DNA from: an uncultured Methanobrevibacter sp.
GTDB taxonomy: Archaea > Methanobacteriota > Methanobacteria > Methanobacteriales > Methanobacteriaceae
DNA length: 10,764 bases
NCBI GenBank assembly: GCA_946611495.1
Contig: CAMODR010000020.1
Span: 1 to 10,764 of the forward strand
Direction of reading: 5' to 3'
Shown: positions 66-10,166 of the stretch, piece by piece
Numbering within the stretch: the first letter of the stretch is position 1
Layout: each line of letters starts with the position of its first letter
Made by a program: the position numbers and the translations under genes
The notes under the pieces: model-generated
The model's input: only the letters and a program-made list of their open reading frames with translations
Told to the model about the DNA's origin: nothing
The model's database searches: none

Positions 66-1742
66 CTATTTTGAGAATGCAGGTAAAATTATGCTTCTTT
101 CACCATCAGCCTCAAATTCTCTTAATGCACCTTTAGCGATACATTTTCTAGGATGTTCAAAGTCGAAGGATAAATTCTTATCAGCAAATGCAATTTTAAT
201 TAATGGGTTTACACAGAATGCGTCTCCTCTTGCAGCGTGTGGTGCTTGAGCGATTCCAGCATATTCTGGTTGGTGTCCCACATTCATTGCATAGTTAGGA
301 TAGTTTGGTCCTCTTAGTTCATGGATCAATCCTTCATCACTTCTAATGGATAATGAGTTAGCTGCTCCACATTGGTCCTGCAAGTCATAACCATAGAATC
401 CTAATCTGCTGTGGGCTTCCTTATGTTCAATCATACTGAGGTACCAACCGTTCACTCCAGCATTTGAGTTTCCTGTTGCGAATGCTACGGAACATCCTGC
501 AGCAGCAGAAATTACTGATGCTCTTTGAGAACCTCCGAAATGGTCTTCAAGTAATGTTGGGATTTCATATTGTTCTAATCCGTAAATTGTGACTTCAGTA
601 GCAATATCCTTCACATTATCGAAATTAGCTTCCGCTTGACACATTCCATAATTTTCCTCTACATAATCTTTTCCATAGTAAATGAAATCATCCAATATAT
701 CATCAGTATAAGTTGCACTTGCGTATTGGGTGAAACCTACACCTCCAGACATGTATGAACCTAACCATACTTGGTCGTATAATGTTGCTGCTCCACCAAT
801 TACTTCTAATGTGATTTCGGCAGGGTCCTTACTGATTCTTGATGTTTGAATCATATCAGCAAATATTCCAAATGGAACTCCACCAGGTTCATTAGCTCCT
901 CTTGCACGTCTTGCAGGTAATATTGCTGCCATACCAATTACGTCTGCGTGTTTAGCAGCATATGAAAAGTCTGCAATCGCTGCTTCTCCAGCACATAAGC
1001 TGTATGCAGTAATGAAACTCATACCAATTTGCATAGCTGACCATCGAGATACGGTACCACCATCACAAGCTCTAACAACTAATGTTGGTACTCTACTAAC
1101 TTGATAAGTCTTGTTTCCAACATATTCCTTAAGCATTTCAGCTTGCTCTTCAGGGAATTCCTTGTTGATATCAATCAATACTCTTTTATCGAGTTCATCA
1201 GCTAATTCATCATTTCCAGTGAAGATTTTTGCGTAACAGTCTGATGCAAGTCCTGGGTGCACTTCCACCATGTGTTCTTGAACTACAGCTCCTCCAGGAA
1301 GTGCATGGTTAATTGTTTCCATATATTCATTGATTGTTTCCGGAGTAACCTCTACACCTAACCTTTCTTGCAATACTGAATGTGCTGTATCCATACCTAC
1401 AATTACAGTTCTTTTTATATCATCCACTAATTGTTGGATAGCAGCATTGTTACAGAAGTGTAAGTCGTCTCCTTCAACATAATCTTCAGTACCTGATATC
1501 TTATAACTCATTAATTGTCTTTGTCCTAAAGGCACACCAATGTCAGGGTTATAAAAAGGCATGTTGTCTCTTTTTTTAGCTAAGTCATTTGCAGCATCAA
1601 AAAATTCTCTTTTACGGGCAGATTGTTTCCACCCATCAAAACAGTAAAAACTGGTTTGTTGGTTTTCTTGGTCTTCACCTTTAAATTTTTTAGTTAATGC
1701 ATCTAGAAAACGTTTATTTTCCAGTTTTTCTCCTTTTGCCAT
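66..1742 (-). CDS. mrtA: Methyl-coenzyme M reductase II, alpha subunit (MrtA)
   Basis: Catalytic alpha subunit of the cytoplasmic alpha2beta2gamma2 nickel-F430 enzyme that converts methyl-CoM and CoB to methane and heterodisulfide. At 558 residues it is full length and slightly longer than McrA (about 550). Visible landmarks, with the McrA equivalent in brackets, are Gln155 in VVQEHMVE (the F430 nickel ligand, Gln147), Lys264 and His265 in YAAKHA (CoB binding; N-methyl-His257), Arg278 and Arg279 in PARRARG (CoB-binding Arg270; methyl-Arg271), Tyr340 in GFTQY (Tyr333), Gln406 (Gln400), Gly451 in FYGYD (thioglycine 445), Asp456 (Asp450) and Cys458 (Cys452). All catalytic residues are therefore present. 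Its ATG overlaps the mrtG stop codon by one base (TAATG), and AGGTGAT in the end of mrtG serves as ribosome binding site. The call of isoenzyme II rests on the operon lacking mcrC, the long gamma subunit, and the [13 protein letters not shown] variant of the active-site segment. Confidence 0.97.
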
Positions 1743-2539
1743 TAGTCATCACCTAATCTCTTTTTTAAATCGTTTTTAAATACATTTAATCCAAAACCAC
1801 CTTCAGTACGGGAAGTGTGTATATTTTCCACTACTTCTACAAGTTCTTTATCGGTTCTTAAACCGATGTTATCTTCCCTATAAATTGTAGTGATTTCATT
1901 AAGATAATCTTCTGGAAGTGGCTCTCCAACGTCTACACCTTCGTCAAGAAGACGACCTACTTGGTCCTTAATGTACATGACATGGCCTGTTTCCTCATCA
2001 AAAATGTATCTTTGCAATCCATCAAACATCAATCCATTTTCGTCTAGCCTTAATGAGTGTCCATGCACTGTTGCACCTCTCATACCTGACCTTGCTGGAT
2101 CAAACATATCTGTTTCAACTAACTCTTTGGAAATTTTTTCCAAGTCAGACTCTCTTATTTCAATAACTTGTCTTCCAGATAATGTTCCTGTATCTACTCC
2201 TCTGTATCTCCACATGTAAGTCCTTGCTCTGTCATATGGTTGTGCAGGAGCGTTATACATGGAATCTGCAAATTGAATATATCTTACACGAATTCCTTCT
2301 TTAGCTCCGTGAATAGGTTCAACTAATTCTCTTACAGGGTCTTCATTCAAGTCCATTTCGTCTAATGGAGGGTGTACTTTTTTATAGTCTTGTCCAGGGT
2401 TTCTATGTCCTAAAATGTTTACAAGCCCTTCATCGGAAATTTCTCTGATAACTTTTAATTTATGTTCAGGGTTCATATGCTTTCTTCTATTTTCAGCAAT
2501 TCTTGTTTCTCCTGGACAAAATTGAGCATTATATGTCAT
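1742..2539 (-). CDS. mrtG: Methyl-coenzyme M reductase II, gamma subunit (MrtG)
   Basis: Gamma subunit, 265 residues. This is longer than McrG (about 249) and fits the MrtG isoform. The F430-contacting segments are intact: TLSGR at 119-123 (Leu120, Ser121, Arg123, equal to Leu117, Ser118, Arg120 of the Methanothermobacter enzyme) and ATVHGHS at 156-162 (Val158, His159, His161, equal to Val155, His156, His158). The start is set by TAAGGTGA, which overlaps the mrtD stop and sits six bases before the ATG. The stop overlaps the mrtA start. In mcr operons a mcrC gene would lie between D and G; here only nine bases separate them, so mcrC is genuinely absent. Mrt presumably borrows McrC from a mcr operon elsewhere. 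Confidence 0.97.
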
Positions 2540-4517: not shown

Positions 4518-4600
4518 TTAGAATCTTTATCGTGTTTAAGACTAATTTTGATAATTTTAAATGTTTCCATCAGTCAATCAGATATCTTAACAACCTTTTT

Positions 4601-4652
4601 GTGAATTTTGTTTGTGAATTTTGTTTGTGAATTTTGTTTGTGAATTTTGCAG
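4601..4652. repeat. 13-bp direct repeat array GTGAATTTTGTTT, about 4 copies
   Basis: Three exact head-to-tail copies of GTGAATTTTGTTT start at 4601, 4614 and 4627, followed by a fourth diverging copy (GTGAATTTTGCAG) at 4640. The array lies about 200 bp upstream of mrtB. Similar sequences flank it, AATCAGATATC (from 4577) and AATCAGGATATC (from 4671). A close relative of the array lies at 5478-5540 in the same orientation. Too short and spacerless for CRISPR. Confidence 0.9.
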
Positions 4653-4977: not shown

Positions 4978-5043
4978 TGATTATTTTTATTAAATAATCA
5001 TTTGTTTATATTAAGTAATACATATATATACTTTTTTATTACT
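4978..5043 (-). promoter_or_regulatory. Composite promoter-like module pointing at mrt (module 1)
   Basis: Read on the minus strand: left arm AGTAATA, a TATA-like run TATATATA (5022-5030), right arm TATTACT ending at 5014, a 13-bp gap, then a perfect inverted repeat TGATTATTT-N5-AAATAATCA (5000-4978). The two AGTAATA/TATTACT arms are 16 bp apart. A start site 25 bp from the TATA box would fall at about 5000, the first base of the inverted repeat. Module 3 (6457-6520) has the same spacing throughout. If used for mrt, the leader would be about 595 nt, which is long. Confidence 0.45.
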
Positions 5044-5348
5044 GAAATTTTTTTATAAATTTCTTATTTTTATCCTTTTTAGTTTTAAGTTTTTTAAAGT
5101 TCATTTTTATCTTTTATAAGATTATTTATGCTTATTTAGAAGAAATAAGTTGATTTAAATTATTTTTTATATTTATTAAAATTTTATTTAATTTATTTAA
5201 ATTTAATTAATTTTTCTTAATTTTCTTTTTAATATTTAATTTATCTTTATAATTTAAAAATAAATTCTAAATAAACTTATTTTTTATTTCAGAACTCAAT
5301 CTATTTCAATTTTATTTTTTTATTTGAAATTTTAGATAATTTTTAATA

Positions 5349-5378
5349 AGTAATACTTTTTTTATATTTTGTATTACT
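5349..5378. repeat. AGTAATA-N16-TATTACT inverted repeat (element 2)
   Basis: Arms AGTAATAC and GTATTACT are exact reverse complements over 8 bp with a TATA-like spacer. The following 25 bp (AATTTTTTATAAAAGAATTT) closely match the sequence after element 4 at 6844. On the minus strand an inverted repeat ATTTCAA-N14-TTGAAAT (5330-5303) follows 18 bp after the element, resembling the layout of the promoter modules. Confidence 0.7.
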
Positions 5379-5477
5379 AATTTTTTATAAAAGAATTTTT
5401 TTATTTTTTCTGATTTTATTATTCCATAAAAGAATTTGAAAAATTATTTCTTTTTTTATGGGAAATATAATTTATTT

Positions 5478-5540
5478 GTGGATTTTGTTAGTGAATTTTG
5501 TTAGTGAATTTTGTTAGTGAATTTTGTTTTGAATTTTGAT
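5478..5540. repeat. 13-bp direct repeat array GTGAATTTTGTTA, about 4.8 copies
   Basis: Units start at 5478 (GTGGATTTTGTTA), 5491, 5504, 5517 (GTGAATTTTGTTT) and a partial fifth at 5530. The consensus differs from the array at 4601 only in the last base. Both arrays have the same period and orientation, 877 bp apart, so they are one family. Possible roles are multiple binding sites for a regulator or a simple minisatellite. Confidence 0.9.
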
Positions 5541-5680
5541 CAAGCTTTTATTTTTATGGTGAATTAGAGGGCAATTAATATTTACAAAAGGTTTAATAAA
5601 TTGAATTAAAAAATAAGAATTAAAAATTTAAAATGGGGATTATGAAAAGAATATAATTATTTTATTGTTTTAAAAAGATA

Positions 5681-5757
5681 ATTGAATTAAAAATAATTGA
5701 ATTAAAAATAATTTAATTAAATAATTTAATTAAATAATTTAATTAAATAATTAATTA
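5681..5757. repeat. Low-complexity AT tandem repeats (15-bp x2, then 13-bp x4)
   Basis: Two exact copies of ATTGAATTAAAAATA (5681, 5696) lead into AATAATTTAATTA repeated at 5707, 5720 and 5733, plus a copy one base shorter at 5746. The array is pure A/T from 5700 on apart from the G at 5699. It probably reflects replication slippage; it would also melt easily. Confidence 0.85.
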
Positions 5758-5810
5758 AATATTTGAATTTACGATAATTTGATGAAAGATAAATGGATAA
5801 GATATGTTAA

Positions 5811-5840
5811 AACAATATTAATAAAAACAATATTAATAAA
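5811..5840 (-). terminator. 15-bp direct repeat, possible U-rich terminator of hypA
   Basis: AACAATATTAATAAA occurs twice in tandem, 32-61 bp beyond the hypA stop. On the transcribed minus strand this gives runs such as TTGTTTTTATT and TTGTTTTAAC. Archaeal termination often needs only U-tracts, so this is a fair but unproven candidate. Confidence 0.4.
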
Positions 5841-5871
5841 TAAACATTATATTAAATTAGCATAATTAACA

Positions 5872-6234
5872 TTATTGTTCTATAGTTATGTTGCCAAGGA
5901 TTATGTCATTTCCATCAAGTACATTAACTCTATGGCTTCCACATTCTGGACATAGGACCATAGGAATCATCTCTTTATCAATTTTATCTATTTGCCCGTT
6001 AAAATCACAGTTGTAACATTTGATACTGGCATCAGTTTCATTTATATATAAATTTGCATTTTCAGCTATTGTGCCTTTAGATAATATATTAAAAATAAAA
6101 TTCAATTGATCCTCTGTAATCTGATTTAGCTTTCCTATTTCAACATTGATTTCGGTAATTTTTTGTGCATTATACTCTTCAGCGGTTTCTAAGGATAAGT
6201 TAAGAATATTTTGCACTATAGTTGCCTTATGCAT
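5872..6234 (-). CDS. hypA: Hydrogenase nickel incorporation protein HypA
   Basis: HypA/HybF family metallochaperone, 120 residues, the usual length (about 110-125). It delivers nickel to [NiFe]-hydrogenase maturation together with HypB. The zinc-binding domain is complete: Cys73-x2-Cys76 (CYNC) and Cys95-x2-Cys98 (CPEC). The nickel site uses Met1 and His2, so the start is fixed by function, and GGGAG seven bases upstream supports it. Residue 3 is Lys where the family nearly always has Glu (MHE), a residue needed for nickel binding in characterised members, so metal affinity may differ. The segment EIGKLNQITEDQLNF (32-46) matches the helix after the conserved EIG. It stands alone, with no hypB next to it and wide AT-rich gaps on both sides. 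Methanogens need nickel for both hydrogenases and F430, but HypA is known only for the hydrogenases. Confidence 0.94.
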   Translation of the reverse strand: MHKATIVQNILNLSLETAEEYNAQKITEINVEIGKLNQITEDQLNFIFNILSKGTIAENANLYINETDASIKCYNCDFNGQIDKIDKEMIPMVLCPECGSHRVNVLDGNDIILGNITIEQ

Positions 6235-6427
6235 AAAATACTCCCTATATATTTTTAAATAAGAGTAAAAGATTAAATATGAATTAATAGTTATAAATTA
6301 AATTGTAGCTGGCTATTTAAAAACAAAAACTCACATTTAACATCTTTAAACTCTTAAATTTTACTCTATTTATTAGTTTTTTAAATAATTTCATATATTT
6401 ATTTTATCCAGGAAAATATATGAATAC

Positions 6428-6450
6428 ACAATTGCTTGGCATACAATTGC
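6428..6450. repeat. Direct repeat ACAATTGC, 15 bp apart
   Basis: ACAATTGC occurs at 6428-6435 and 6443-6450, each containing the palindrome CAATTG. It lies in the least AT-rich island between hypA and flpC, just downstream (minus strand) of the inverted repeat of module 3. If hypA is transcribed from module 3 it would be in the leader. Confidence 0.5.
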
Positions 6451-6456
6451 AAGGGA

Positions 6457-6520
6457 TGATTATTGTTTTAATAATCAATTCATAGTTAATAGTAATAATT
6501 ATATAAAGTTTTTTATTACT
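6457..6520 (-). promoter_or_regulatory. Composite promoter-like module pointing at hypA (module 3)
   Basis: On the minus strand: AGTAATA, 16 bp including the strong TATA box CTTTATAT (6508-6501), TATTACT ending at 6491, a 13-bp gap, then TGATTATT-N5-AATAATCA (6477-6457). The expected start, about 25 bp from the TATA box, falls at 6475-6480, at the edge of the inverted repeat. AAAAACTTTATAT-N3-TATTACTA is shared exactly with the flp module on the other strand. The spacing equals that of module 1. A hypA leader of about 240 nt would result. Confidence 0.5.
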
Positions 6521-6811
6521 ATCATTTTTTTTAAATTTAATGAGATGTATTTATTTGAATTAAAAGCTTTATTTTTAGCTTAATTTTTTAAATATGCTTT
6601 ATTTAACTCTTATTTTTTAATAATGCTTGTTATTTGTATTTTTTATAATTTGTTAAAAATCTTATAAAATGGTGGAAAATAAGTTATATTATTAAATAAT
6701 TTTTAAAATAGTTTTATTTTTTAAAATTTTAATTTTTTAAACTAATAATAACTATTTACTTTATATTTATCTATAAATTTATTTTTAATTGAATATAATT
6801 TATTTAAAATT

Positions 6812-6845
6812 TTTGTAATACTTTTTTATAAATTTTTATTACAAA
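6812..6845. repeat. TGTAATA-N16-TATTACA inverted repeat (element 4)
   Basis: Arms TTTGTAATA and TATTACAAA are exact reverse complements over 9 bp; the core arms are again 16 bp apart with TTTATAAA in the spacer. The sequence after it (AAATTTTTTATAAAA) matches that after element 2. Confidence 0.7.
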
Positions 6846-6881
6846 TTTTTTATAAAAAAATTTTTTTTAAAAAAATATTTT

Positions 6882-6901
6882 TATTCTTTTATAAAAGAAT
6901 A
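6882..6901. repeat. Perfect 20-bp palindrome
   Basis: TATTCTTTTATAAAAGAATA is its own reverse complement. It abuts the 28-bp tandem repeat at 6903. Part of it (ATAAAAGAAT) recurs downstream of element 2 near 5387 and 5426. It could be a dimeric protein binding site, although long palindromes are commoner by chance in A/T-only sequence. Confidence 0.6.
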
Positions 6902-6902
6902 T

Positions 6903-6958
6903 TAATACTAATTTTAAAAAAAGTATTACTTAATACTAATTTTAAAAAAAGTATTACT
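6903..6958. repeat. 28-bp exact tandem duplication (elements 5 and 6)
   Basis: Two identical 28-bp units (6903-6930, 6931-6958). On the minus strand each reads AGTAATA, 16 bp, TATTA, so each is a copy of the AGTAATA-N16-TATTACT element with its second arm cut into by the next unit. A short inverted repeat TTAGAT-TTT-ATCTAA (6964-6978) follows. Confidence 0.8.
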
Positions 6959-7272
6959 AATTTTTAGATTTTATCTAATTAAAATTATATATGAAAAAAT
7001 ATTTTATTTGCCTTTAATTTCTAAAATTATTTTTTATATTTCTTTATTTTCATAAAAAAATCCTAAAAATTAAGTAAATTTTTATTTAATCTTTTTAGAA
7101 TAAATTTTATTTTTGTTATGGTTATTACTATTGTGTATTAAAGTTAATTTTATCCTTTAAATTGAATTCAATATCATAAAAAGTTTTAATTTTTAAAAAT
7201 ACAAATAATTTATCTTTATTTTTTTAATTTAACCATTGTTTTATATCTGAAAATATGCAAATTTTTCAAAAA

Positions 7273-7330
7273 CTTTATATGAGTATTACTAATTATATAA
7301 AAAGTGTTATTGATAACTTTATCGAATAAC
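7273..7330 (+). promoter_or_regulatory. Promoter-like module of the flp operon with hairpin operator
   Basis: TATA box CTTTATAT (7273-7280), three bases, TATTACT (7284-7290), 15 bp, then an interrupted inverted repeat (7306-7330): GTTATTGATAA and TTATCGAATAAC pair in two blocks of 6 and 5 bp with one bulged G. The predicted start (about 7303) is at the edge of the inverted repeat. The core matches the hypA module at 21 of 24 positions. A second TATA-like sequence ATTATATAAA (7292-7301) overlaps the gap. The leader to flpC would be about 200 nt. Confidence 0.5.
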
Positions 7331-7504
7331 ATGTTTCTTTATTTTTATTGATTTAGGTATTTTCGCGTAATTAATAGGATAAAGAAAAAAATAGAGAATA
7401 AATTTCCTAATTTAAGTTTTTATATTGTGCTGCCTATCTATTGGACTTGGGATGGCTTTGATATGAATTTTTAAATTTGGAAAAATTTTGGAGATTGATA
7501 TTTT
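7331..7504 (+). other. Probable flp leader with a less AT-rich island
   Basis: If transcription starts near 7303, this is 5' untranslated RNA. The segment 7428-7465 (around TGCTGCC, TTGGACTTGGGATGGC) has clearly more G and C than its surroundings, and GCC/GGC could pair. It matches no riboswitch that I recognise. An alternative TATA-like box GTTTTTATATTG (7416-7427) would start transcription near 7450 and shorten the leader to about 55 nt. The ribosome binding site is GGAG at 7490-7493. Confidence 0.35.
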
Positions 7505-8581
7505 ATGTTAGACATAAAACATACAATATGTCCTTCATGTTCTGTAGGATGCGGTTTAAACATTGTTTCAAAAGATGGAGCAGTTGTTGGAACCTACCCA
7601 TATAAGAGACATCCTATAAACGAAGGTAAAAATTGTTTAAATGGTCGAGATTCCATATTGCAATTTGAAGATTCAATTGAGAAGGCTTCTTTTGTAAAAA
7701 ACAATGAACTTGAGGAATCTGATAACGCATCTGTAATCAAAGCGATTAAAGATCAGTTAGCTTCCATTGATGCTAGTGATTTAGCTATCATCTGTTCTGG
7801 AAACAATACAAATGAAGAGCTTGATAAGATCATTGAATTTGCGAATGCATATGGATGTGAAAAAATAGGATTTTATGGATCTAATTTCCCTAATTTTTCA
7901 GGTGAACTCGCAAGCTATGATGATATAAATAAAGCAAGCACTGTCCTTGTTATTGGAGACATTTATAGAGAAAATCCTTTATTGGCTAGAAGAGTTGTAT
8001 TATCTAAGGAGAATGGCGGAAAACTCATCAATATTGATGATGTGGAAAAATCCATCACTTCCCTAAATGCAGATGATTTCATTCAATTCACTGATGACTT
8101 TAATGACAAAGTCGCTAGCGTTAAGGATCAACTAGATGAAAACTCTGTTATTATCGTTAACAAATTATCTAGTAAAGATGACTTTGCGGTTATAGAAGAA
8201 TTATCTAAAGAAAGCAATGCAAAGTTATTGCCTGTTTTCAATGCTCCTAACACTAAAGGTGCTATGAACAGATTAGATTCATTAGATTGCGATGAGATTA
8301 GGAACATTATTGACGACTCTAAAGTACTTATTGTTGTTAAGGATAACTTATTAGATTACTTATCTGAAGATGACATTAAAGGAAAAAGCTTTATTGTAAA
8401 TATTTCTAATGAGAAAAATCGTTTCGCTGAACTTTCAGATATTGTCCTTCCAGGAAAGTCCTGGGCTGAAAAGGAAGGAACTTTCACAAACTGTGAAGGT
8501 TTGGAACAAAGTTTCATCATATCTGCAGAATGTGATAATGATAATCTAAGTGAAATAGAAATATTCGATGAGCTTGCTTAA
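7505..8581 (+). CDS. flpC: FdhA-like protein FlpC, reduced molybdopterin-oxidoreductase homologue
   Basis: Homologue of the alpha subunit of formate dehydrogenase, 358 residues against about 680 for FdhA. The N-terminal [4Fe-4S] motif is intact: Cys9-x2-Cys12-x3-Cys16-x27-Cys44. The Lys that normally follows the last Cys by two positions is Asn46 (CLNG). There is a Rossmann-like segment INKASTVLVIG (141-151) followed by NPLLARRV, and the family signature SDIVLPGKSWAEKEGTFTN (311-329). The Cys/Sec molybdenum ligand expected before the Rossmann segment is missing (GFYGSNFPNF, 122-131, has no Cys), and the C-terminal pterin-binding domain is absent. It is therefore unlikely to oxidise formate; an electron-transfer or structural role, as with NuoG, is more likely. 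The reading frame is clean and ends 13 bases before flpB, so this is its natural length and not a broken gene. GGAG lies 11 bases upstream of the ATG. The symbol rests on recalled similarity to flpECBDA. Confidence 0.8.
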   Translation: MLDIKHTICPSCSVGCGLNIVSKDGAVVGTYPYKRHPINEGKNCLNGRDSILQFEDSIEKASFVKNNELEESDNASVIKAIKDQLASIDASDLAIICSGNNTNEELDKIIEFANAYGCEKIGFYGSNFPNFSGELASYDDINKASTVLVIGDIYRENPLLARRVVLSKENGGKLINIDDVEKSITSLNADDFIQFTDDFNDKVASVKDQLDENSVIIVNKLSSKDDFAVIEELSKESNAKLLPVFNAPNTKGAMNRLDSLDCDEIRNIIDDSKVLIVVKDNLLDYLSEDDIKGKSFIVNISNEKNRFAELSDIVLPGKSWAEKEGTFTNCEGLEQSFIISAECDNDNLSEIEIFDELA

Positions 8582-8585
8582 TATC

Positions 8586-8591
8586 GGTGAT
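8586..8591 (+). promoter_or_regulatory. Ribosome binding site deciding the flpB start
   Basis: GGTGAT is fully complementary to the archaeal 16S rRNA 3' end and lies four bases before the ATG at 8595. This favours 8595 over the in-frame ATG at 8568, which overlaps flpC and has no such site. Confidence 0.8.
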
Positions 8592-8594
8592 ATC

Positions 8595-9749
8595 ATGAGT
8601 GACAAATTTATTCTTGCTAAAAGTAAAGAAAATGAAATAACTGATAGCGGAGCATGTGGAGGAGCAGTAAGTTCTATTTTTCAATATTTATTAAGTAATG
8701 ATATAGTTGACGGTGTATTAACTCTTAATAAAGGTGACGATGTATACGATGGTGTTCCAAGACTTTTGACTGATGCAAGTGAAGTCATTGAAACCTGTGG
8801 CTCATTGCATTGTGCACCTACAATGGTTGGAGATTTAATTTCCGATTATTTGGCTGATGAAAAAATAGCAGTGGCAGTTAAACCTTGTGATGCAAAAGCT
8901 ATTAATGAATTGGTAAAAAGACACAGAATTGACGGAGATAAAATTTTCACTATCGGTTTAAACTGTGGAGGTACAGTTAGACCTGAAGTTGCACAGGAAA
9001 TGATAGAGAAATTTTATGAAGTTGACCCATCCAGAGTCGTAAAGGAAGAGATTGATAAAGGTAAATTCATCATTGAACTTGACGATGGTGAAGAGATTGG
9101 AATCAAGATTGATGACTTGGAAGAAGAAGGTTACGGACGTCGTGATAATTGTCAAAGATGTGAACTTAAGGTTCCACGTAATGCTGACATATCATGTGGT
9201 AACTGGGGTTCTGAACCTGGTTGGACCTTTGTTGAAATCAACACTGAAAAAGGTCAAGAACTAATTGACGGAGCTGTATCCGGAGGATTTATTGAAACTA
9301 AAGCCCCTTCAGAAAAAGCAATGGAAATTAGGGATAAGGTTGAAAACATCATGATTAACATGGGTAAAAAGTCCACAGCAAAACAATTGGATACTGAAGC
9401 CTTAACTATCGAAGAGTGGGAAAATCAGTGGAATAAATGTATAAAATGTTTTGCATGCCGTGATATTTGCCCTATCTGTTGGTGTAATGAATGTGAACTT
9501 GAAAAGCCTTATTTCAAGGATGATAAGCAAGCACCTCCTGATCCTTTAGGATTCCATGGTGTAAGATTATCTCATATGAGTCCAAGCTGTGTAAATTGTG
9601 GTCAATGTGATGACGTATGTCCAATGGAAATTCCAGTATCTAAGTTATTCCATAAGTTACAAGTTAAGTATCAGGATGAAACTGGATATGTTGCTGGTAT
9701 TGGCGATGAAAAGCCTCCATTATACAGTCCACAAAAAGAGAACTTTTAA
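8595..9749 (+). CDS. flpB: F420-type FdhB/FrhB homologue with two C-terminal ferredoxin clusters (FlpB)
   Basis: 384 residues from the chosen start. The first 270 residues are the FrhB/FdhB domain, which in this family binds FAD and F420 and an iron-sulfur cluster: DSGACGGAVSS (17-27), VAVKPCDAKAINEL (93-106), IGLNCGG (120-126) and the cysteines of DNCQRC (186, 189) with Cys201 in DISCGNWG. The C-terminus has two [4Fe-4S] motifs, CIKCFACRDIC (Cys282, 285, 288, 292) and CVNCGQCDDVC (Cys332, 335, 338, 342), with the extra CWCNEC segment seen in FdhB proteins. It has the length of a complete FdhB, unlike its reduced partner FlpC. Likely role: cytoplasmic electron transfer between F420 and the FlpC/FlpD chain. 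Direct F420 binding is inferred from the family. Confidence 0.9.
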   Translation: MSDKFILAKSKENEITDSGACGGAVSSIFQYLLSNDIVDGVLTLNKGDDVYDGVPRLLTDASEVIETCGSLHCAPTMVGDLISDYLADEKIAVAVKPCDAKAINELVKRHRIDGDKIFTIGLNCGGTVRPEVAQEMIEKFYEVDPSRVVKEEIDKGKFIIELDDGEEIGIKIDDLEEEGYGRRDNCQRCELKVPRNADISCGNWGSEPGWTFVEINTEKGQELIDGAVSGGFIETKAPSEKAMEIRDKVENIMINMGKKSTAKQLDTEALTIEEWENQWNKCIKCFACRDICPICWCNECELEKPYFKDDKQAPPDPLGFHGVRLSHMSPSCVNCGQCDDVCPMEIPVSKLFHKLQVKYQDETGYVAGIGDEKPPLYSPQKENF

Positions 9750-9764
9750 TTGGAGATGAATATT

Positions 9765-10166
9765 ATGGCAGAAGATGTTAAAATTGTAGGTTTTTGTTGT
9801 AATTGGTGTTGTTATGGTGGTGCTGATACTGCAGGTACTGCACGTATGCAATATCCTCCAAATGTTAGAATTATAAGAGTAATGTGTTCTGGAAGAATCA
9901 ATCCTTCTATGATCTTCAAGGCATTTAAAGAAGGCGCTGATGGTGTTTTCGTAGGCGGTTGTCACATTGGTGACTGTCACTATGATGCTGGTAATTACAA
10001 ATGGAATAGAAGAGCATTGATGACTAAGGATATCATAGAAGAATTTGGAATCAATAAGGAAAGATTCAGATTTGAATGGATTTCCGCTTCTGAAGGAGAA
10101 AAATTCCAAAGAACTATGAAAGAATTTTATAATACCATTAGTCAACTTGGACCAAGAAATAAATAA
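9765..10166 (+). CDS. flpD: MvhD-like [2Fe-2S] electron-transfer protein (FlpD)
   Basis: 133 residues, the full length of the MvhD family, which passes electrons from hydrogenase or formate dehydrogenase to HdrA of heterodisulfide reductase. Family signature: [37 protein letters not shown] (8-44) with Cys11, 12, 15, 16 and 41, then [10 protein letters not shown] (64-73) with Cys66 and Cys71. These Cys supply the [2Fe-2S] cluster. The ATG at 9765 is chosen over TTG 9750 and ATG 9756 because GGAG (9752-9755) lies upstream and because [10 protein letters not shown] aligns with family N-termini. It lies 15 bases after flpB, in the same operon. It is called flpD and not mvhD because it follows flpC-flpB and no mvhG follows in the remaining 598 bases. 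Without the paralogue to compare, mvhD itself cannot be fully excluded. Confidence 0.88.

Follow-up and report, generated by a model that had tools for sequence, protein, structure and literature searches.

Do the genes for a methyl-coenzyme M reductase, a nickel metallochaperone and a set of electron-transfer proteins answer to one regulator, and if so, to which? The question is raised by a stretch of 10,764 nucleotides from an uncultured Methanobrevibacter species (GenBank assembly GCA_946611495.1, contig CAMODR010000020.1; the whole stretch is called the window below), on which mrtBDGA, encoding methyl-coenzyme M reductase (MCR) isoenzyme II, and hypA lie on the minus strand and three flp genes, identified below as elpABC, on the plus strand. 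An initial annotation of this DNA had proposed that the three promoters share a TATA box, the heptamer TATTACT and an inverted repeat, and that one regulator acts on all of them. In the mrt and hypA promoters this heptamer forms the right half of a longer inverted repeat (AGTAATA-N16-TATTACT, 30 bp), which encloses the TATA box and was overlooked in that annotation. Judging by sequence comparison, this repeat probably serves the archaeal nickel repressor NikR as its operator, from which the protein would be released when nickel is scarce. Such an operator, together with a candidate repressor and a list of targets, would give concrete form to nickel sensing in gut methanogens and to their switch to the nickel-free Hmd/Elp route, and the placement of an MCR isoenzyme in a likely nickel regulon bears on livestock methane.

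The genome to which the window belongs (G000) consists of 291 contigs, of which the window is C20, and is 62.8% complete. The genus comparison comprises 19 congeneric genomes and the family-level comparison 138 genomes; the relatives G001 and G002 are 99% and 95% complete, respectively.

An inverted repeat around the TATA box

The order TATA box, 2-3 nt, TATTACT, 13 nt and inverted repeat is indeed present at mrt, hypA and flp where it had been placed, and the block AAAAACTTTATAT-N3-TATTACTA is common to hypA and flp without deviation. The window contains 11 copies of TATTACT compared to 3.4 expected (standard deviation 1.7), and none of 200 shuffles reaches 11; the pattern is above chance. 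The first three of the following predicted operators are the exact copies of AGTAATA-N16-TATTACT in the window.

5014..5043, minus strand: operator-promoter of mrt, TATA box (about 5023-5030) inside the exact repeat
5349..5378, minus strand: distal copy of the mrt operator, lying 335 bp upstream of it and exact in the window
6491..6520, minus strand: operator-promoter of hypA, TATA box (about 6500-6507) inside the repeat, exact in 4 of 4 genomes
6814..6843, minus strand: distal copy of the hypA operator, lying 323 bp upstream of it, with an exact GTAATA-N16-TATTAC core

Across the 19 genus genomes the exact repeat with N16 occurs 37 times against six times for the reversed pattern, whereas all spacers from 4 to 34 pooled give 125 against 108, and thus the excess sits at N16. 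A minor N18 class is present at some conserved promoters. One TATA-TATTACT block in nine genomes lies between a surface-type gene and a gene for a 460-aa MFS-like protein (L296-L303, L307; e.g. L296:2657-2690), with a left arm at N18 that is core-exact in five of the nine. Searched on both strands of the 19 genomes, the combined TATA-TATTACT block (TTTATATNNKTATTACT) is found 32 times against four times reversed and is therefore not randomly distributed. Single genomes contain between zero and four copies; the four in G001 belong to mrt, hypA, elp and an adhesin-like gene, and the three in the window's genome to hypA, elp and an adhesin-like gene. If one mismatch in the repeat is allowed, there are 26 sites in G001 (seven reversed) and 131 in nine genomes (62 reversed). 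Up to two mismatches give no excess in G001 (164 against 165 reversed), and weak sites thus count only if they are conserved. Nine arbitrary 20-kb stretches (180 kb) contain no intergenic site with at most one mismatch and four with two. Within the family, the exact site is present in 57 of the 138 genomes, and 20 stretches with family-level matches were retrieved and inspected.

It could be supposed that TATTACT is a mere extended promoter element accompanying some TATA boxes, which would fit its fixed distance to the TATA box at several promoters, including those of surface-protein genes. The second, inverted arm at N16 and the low copy number per genome speak against this explanation, which we regard as very improbable.

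When orthologous intergenic regions are compared, the core GTAATA-N16-TATTAC is exact at both mrt and hypA in all four genomes with a mrt-hypA-elp cluster (G000, G001, G002 and G015). In each of the four, the distal hypA copy stands 322-323 bp upstream of its proximal counterpart, and the distal mrt copy is found with one or two mismatches in the three relatives, at 333-335 bp. Considering all mrt loci, the core is exact at four of five, a count that includes G018 and leaves out the fragment in G014. The mrt-like operon of G018 (L226) is divergent (77% McrB identity), lies directly behind a mtd-like gene, and is without operator. The upstream regions of mcr, which encodes isoenzyme I, are likewise without operator, the best core match having at least two mismatches in 10 of 10 (209, 483 and 511 bp scanned in G005, G007 and G010, and 1200 bp in the others).

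Genes behind the operator

Of the 37 exact sites in the genus, 20 by our own count either stand before genes of nickel, hydrogenase or methanogenesis function or represent the distal mrt copy. Surface-protein genes are also among those with a site in front. Most prominent outside the window are hmd and hcgG, which are arranged back to back with one site apiece, also in the window's own genome (L238). The core is exact at hmd in eight of ten examinable genomes, with one mismatch in G015, and at hcgG in seven of ten, with one mismatch in G008 and G015 and no site in G009. In the hmd promoters of other genera an exact site is found only in G025, the remaining resolved promoters having at least two mismatches (30 loci scanned, with no hmd start located in 11 and almost no upstream sequence in one).

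Among the 26 sites of G001, four form one tandem repeat, and 20 of the other 22 were viewed (C3:33949 and C37:13050 were left out). The viewed sites precede hypA (two copies), mrt, mch, hmd, hcgG and a mtrH paralogue. Others are situated 120 bp before a nikA-like solute-binding protein gene, before a P-loop gene behind a nikA-like operon, 426 bp before CbiM, and 304 bp before the F430 nickelochelatase CfbA (NF033198, 1e-68). Further sites precede the gene of a PF01497 binding protein and three adhesin-like genes, of which one follows a CobN/DUF2162/ExbB cluster. No evident link is seen for the sites at a gene resembling that of the TATA-binding protein (TBP), at L261, and for three near L259:4019-4168. 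The site upstream of the TBP-like gene (L263:3952-3981) has one mismatch. In G001 and G015 a second mtrH gene adjoins the mtr operon, and an exact copy is found between the two mtrH genes (L064:2717-5357, L088).

Nickel uptake genes have upstream sites in several genomes: the nikA-like gene in G001, G002, G007 and G025 (scanned in the first two and read beside them in the others) and CbiM in G001. The NikA-like proteins score below NCBIfam's own NikA cut-off. G025, which belongs to another genus (g6), has exact sites both before the nikA-like gene and between hcgG and hmd. Because the element recurs before nickel uptake genes and before nickel-free enzymes, it is probably part of a low-nickel switch. 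The labels adhesin-like, MFS-like, TBP-like and mtd-like are taken from reading the sequences except where a family match is given, and several further open reading frames were named in the same way without a family scan (CbiM-like in L143-L158, DUF2149-like in L147, L151 and L306).

The same target list could be read as that of a hydrogen-responsive regulator, whose shared site would serve the H2 control of mrt and hmd. Mrt is reported to respond to H2 (PMC3087415; PMC12350162; these and the other cited papers are quoted from the parts available to us), and hmd, mrt, flp and frhA are all genes of H2 metabolism. However, the nikA-like, CbiM and CfbA genes have no evident reason to follow H2, and a candidate H2 sensor was not found. 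Because of the sites at the transporters and at CfbA, H2 control is ranked below nickel, and we consider it unlikely.

NikR as the candidate regulator

The archaeal nickel repressor NikR is encoded by a single-copy gene in 15 of the 19 genus genomes and is present in 125 of the 138 genomes of the family. All 29 recovered sequences have kept the nickel ligands H76, H87, H89 and C95 as well as R3, and the top solved chain, 2bj1, is a nickel responsive regulator. In Escherichia coli, NikR binds GTATGA-N16-TCATAC (PMC7055735). This operator of nikABCDE has the same two-fold repeat, the same N16, a 28-bp core, the outer GTA/TAC and a nickel uptake target, and the E. coli protein has the same R3 of the β-strand and all four nickel ligands. 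There are also differences: E. coli NikR has T5 and T7 where the archaeal proteins have S5 and S7, and the Methanobrevibacter operator straddles an archaeal TATA box and has methanogenesis enzymes among its targets. In other lineages, predicted NikR signals are repeats of 27-28 bp whose arms drift while the length is near-constant (PMC545781). The signal predicted for delta-proteobacteria, GTGTTAC-N13/14-GTAACAC, has the same overall length and another arm sequence (PMC545781), which agrees with the Methanobrevibacter arm at four of six positions; drift between lineages is what has been reported for such arms. Desulfovibrio NikR is predicted to repress a nickel-independent hydrogenase, as would be the case here, although that enzyme is iron-only and not Hmd (PMC545781). 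In addition, Methanothermobacter marburgensis responds to nickel limitation with higher levels of Hmd, HcgG, Elp and nickel transporters, and under this condition Elp replaces Mvh, a nickel hydrogenase (PMC12350162).

Assuming the TATA box to be near -30, the two arms of the operator would span about -44 to -38 and about -21 to -15, and thus a bound NikR tetramer would exclude TBP and TFB. With plentiful nickel, the tetramer would bind both arms flanking BRE and TATA box (about -44 to -15) and thereby block TBP/TFB. With scarce nickel, NikR would let go, and MCR isoenzyme II, HypA and Elp would be made. The [Fe]-hydrogenase, the cofactor gene hcgG and the nickel uptake proteins would likewise be derepressed.

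Several observations weigh against this assignment. No nikR match is present in the window's own genome (62.8% complete), and the presence of NikR elsewhere has no discriminating value, as almost the whole family encodes it. G013 and G017 encode NikR and yet show no excess of sites (3 against 6 and 7 against 6 reversed). The upstream region of nikR itself matches weakly, with one mismatch in G013 and two to three elsewhere in the genus, and the arm GTAATA agrees with the E. coli arm GTATGA at four of six positions. In M. marburgensis, nickel limitation is reported to lower Mrt to about 50% (Mcr to about 10%) and also to lower Frh (PMC12350162); an exact site is found 0.4 kb upstream of frhA in G005. 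The hmd gene of G009 is without a clear site, many sites precede long surface-protein (adhesin-like) genes, another precedes the gene of a MarR-family protein, and in G001 and G013 a site is located behind and not before the CobN/DUF2149 cluster. Lastly, the N18 class before the MFS-like gene may belong to a second factor. The conserved operator, with its low frequency across the genome, gives good support to the idea that mrt, hypA and flp share one regulator, for which NikR is the probable candidate.

Concerning the metal, a NikR-type site might serve a protein that senses cobalt or zinc. CbiM and CobN are names that point to cobalt, and one Methanothermobacter NikR encoded beside a zinc transporter is a suspected zinc sensor (PMC3087415). 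We hold this to be quite unlikely given that hypA, CfbA, hmd and elp are nickel or nickel-replacing genes and that hycI is found two genes behind nikR in G003.

The MarR-family protein (L073:3348-3839) was favoured at first as a regulator that would be autoregulated via the exact site at its own gene, and was dropped because of its distribution. Top PDB matches of this protein include MarR proteins, and the exact site is found upstream in five of the six genus genomes with a close orthologue (L073, L076, L082, L086, L089). However, these are just six of 19 genomes, and neither G014 nor any of 24 loci in other genera has a site within 300 bp. The gene is also absent from the nearly complete and site-rich G001 and G002, so that a role as target is the likelier one; as the regulator it is hardly probable at all. 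The MarR gene adjoins carboxymuconolactone-decarboxylase-like genes. In genus g3 (L159, L160) a winged-helix-type regulator gene has an exact repeat in front of it, and a CsoR/RcnR-like gene was noticed nearby by eye in L160.

As to the surface proteins, adhesin-like genes with the operator or its N18 form shortly upstream are found in L068, L092, L094, L142-L146, L148, L151, L264 and L304, and often adjoin CbiM or CobN-type genes. In genus g9, five sites are located between a surface-protein gene (at 52-112 bp, one overlapping) and a divergent CbiM-like gene (at 432-794 bp), which makes the surface protein the nearer target. Perhaps the adhesin-like genes encode metal-scavenging surface proteins.

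NikR, the geometry of its operator and an earlier study of methanogen NikR sites are already known. A review of 2011 reports that nickel controls the transcription of hmd and frh and lists NikR homologues as candidates, with no operator given in the part available to us (PMC3087415), and the available part of the 2025 Nature paper on the switch names neither operator nor regulator (PMC12350162). NikR sites in eight methanogens were studied by Rodionov 2006 (as cited in PMC10617489), and part of this regulon may therefore be in print already. In the accessible portions of the literature searched on NikR together with methanogens, hmd, archaea and nickel limitation, no operator link of NikR to mrt, elp or hmd was recognised. 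Nor was a NikR-type operator at mrt-hypA-elp and hmd-hcgG encountered in that literature.

Phased half-sites at the elp promoter

The promoter of the flp/elp genes has the right half-site only; the left arm is absent.

7274..7290, plus strand: flp/elp promoter, TATA box (TTTATAT) with the TATTACT right half-site
7123..7129, plus strand: upstream TATTACT half-site, at a distance of exactly 161 bp from that of the flp/elp promoter
6924..6958, plus strand: two more upstream TATTACT half-sites (6924 and 6952), at distances of 360 and 332 bp from that of the flp/elp promoter

Ten genus genomes encode elpA, of which eight were used, the upstream sequences of G005 and G009 being too short; second elpA copies (G001, G015) were left out. 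TATTACT at 161 bp has been kept in all eight genomes, alongside a TATA-like box with TATTACT. Exact half-sites are found at 331-332 bp in seven and at 358-360 bp in six of the eight, and are degenerate in the remainder. Over 340 gap-free columns of the elp upstream regions the commonest base accounts on average for 71%, compared to 56% at random offsets, and the spacing is thus conserved partly together with the sequence. G003 is the most diverged sequence in this alignment. If NikR is the repressor, the flp promoter with its one half-site would be held together with the phased half-sites upstream.

A wider reading, possible but doubtful in our judgement, is that in Methanobrevibacter one nickel repressor runs a whole nickel-saving programme through TATA-nested operators, that the distal half-sites form loops, and that a 5' hairpin adds a second layer at mrt-hypA-elp. 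The programme would cover MCR isoenzyme II, HypA, Elp, Hmd/HcgG, the F430 chelatase, nickel uptake and metal-scavenging surface proteins. The conserved distances of 161, 322/323 and 331-335 bp would then reflect a looped or chromatin-like repressor complex.

The inverted repeat near the predicted transcription start

The initial annotation had offered the inverted repeat downstream of TATTACT, near the predicted +1, as either an operator or a 5'-terminal RNA hairpin.

4978..5000, minus strand: inverted repeat 13 nt past TATTACT that may fold into a 5'-terminal RNA hairpin in the mrt transcript; in 4 of 4 genomes
6457..6477, minus strand: inverted repeat that may fold into a 5' RNA hairpin in the hypA transcript; in 4 of 4 genomes
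7304..7332, plus strand: inverted repeat that may fold into a 5' RNA hairpin in the flp/elp transcript; in all eight genomes whose available sequence is long enough

A minimum free energy of -4.0 or below is predicted for all 12 promoters (three genes in four genomes) compared to 7.4% of 7102 background windows. The stem at elp has eight to ten pairs in all eight promoters, and its change from TGTGATT/AATCACA to TGTTATT/AATAACA in the window and to CGTTATT/AATAACG in G003 is compensatory. Because both arms change together, an RNA hairpin fits better than a fixed protein site. The operator half of the earlier proposal has to be moved mainly to the repeat straddling the TATA box, while the hairpin half is strengthened by the co-varying elp arms. 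A hairpin at the same offset is found in none of six hmd and one of six hcgG promoters and is thus largely specific to the mrt-hypA-elp cluster. Rfam families at gathering score are absent from the window. The inverted repeat near the predicted +1 is a conserved feature distinct from the operator and would probably act as a separate RNA layer.

Gene content of the window

The genes of the window are as follows.

66..1742, minus strand: mrtA, top PDB match MCR isoenzyme II
1742..2539, minus strand: mrtG, TIGR03259
2549..3064, minus strand: mrtD, TIGR03260
3074..4405, minus strand: mrtB (MCR II beta), TIGR03257
5872..6234, minus strand: hypA, nickel metallochaperone, TIGR00100 above cut-off
7505..8581, plus strand: flp gene for ElpA, truncated FdhA-like protein of 358 aa, family and PDB match
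8568..9749, plus strand: flp gene for ElpB, FrhB/FdhB-like, family match
9750..10166, plus strand: flp gene for ElpC, MvhD homologue, family match

The closest named relatives of mrtB are from Methanobrevibacter metagenome-assembled genomes (94%). MrtA is closer to Mrt than to Mcr, with 1040 and 1037 bits to the PDB chains 5a8w and 5a8r and 873 bits to the top chain named as MCR I. ElpA matches over its full length a solved chain of 342 aa named formate dehydrogenase alpha. The three flp products correspond to the ElpABC module as defined in PMC12350162, an FdhA-like subunit that is devoid of the molybdopterin part and is accompanied by partners resembling FdhB and MvhD. By eye, tandem GTGAATTTTGTTT-like repeats are seen at 4598-4650 in the long AT-rich leader of mrt and at 5476-5540 upstream of the distal operator copy.

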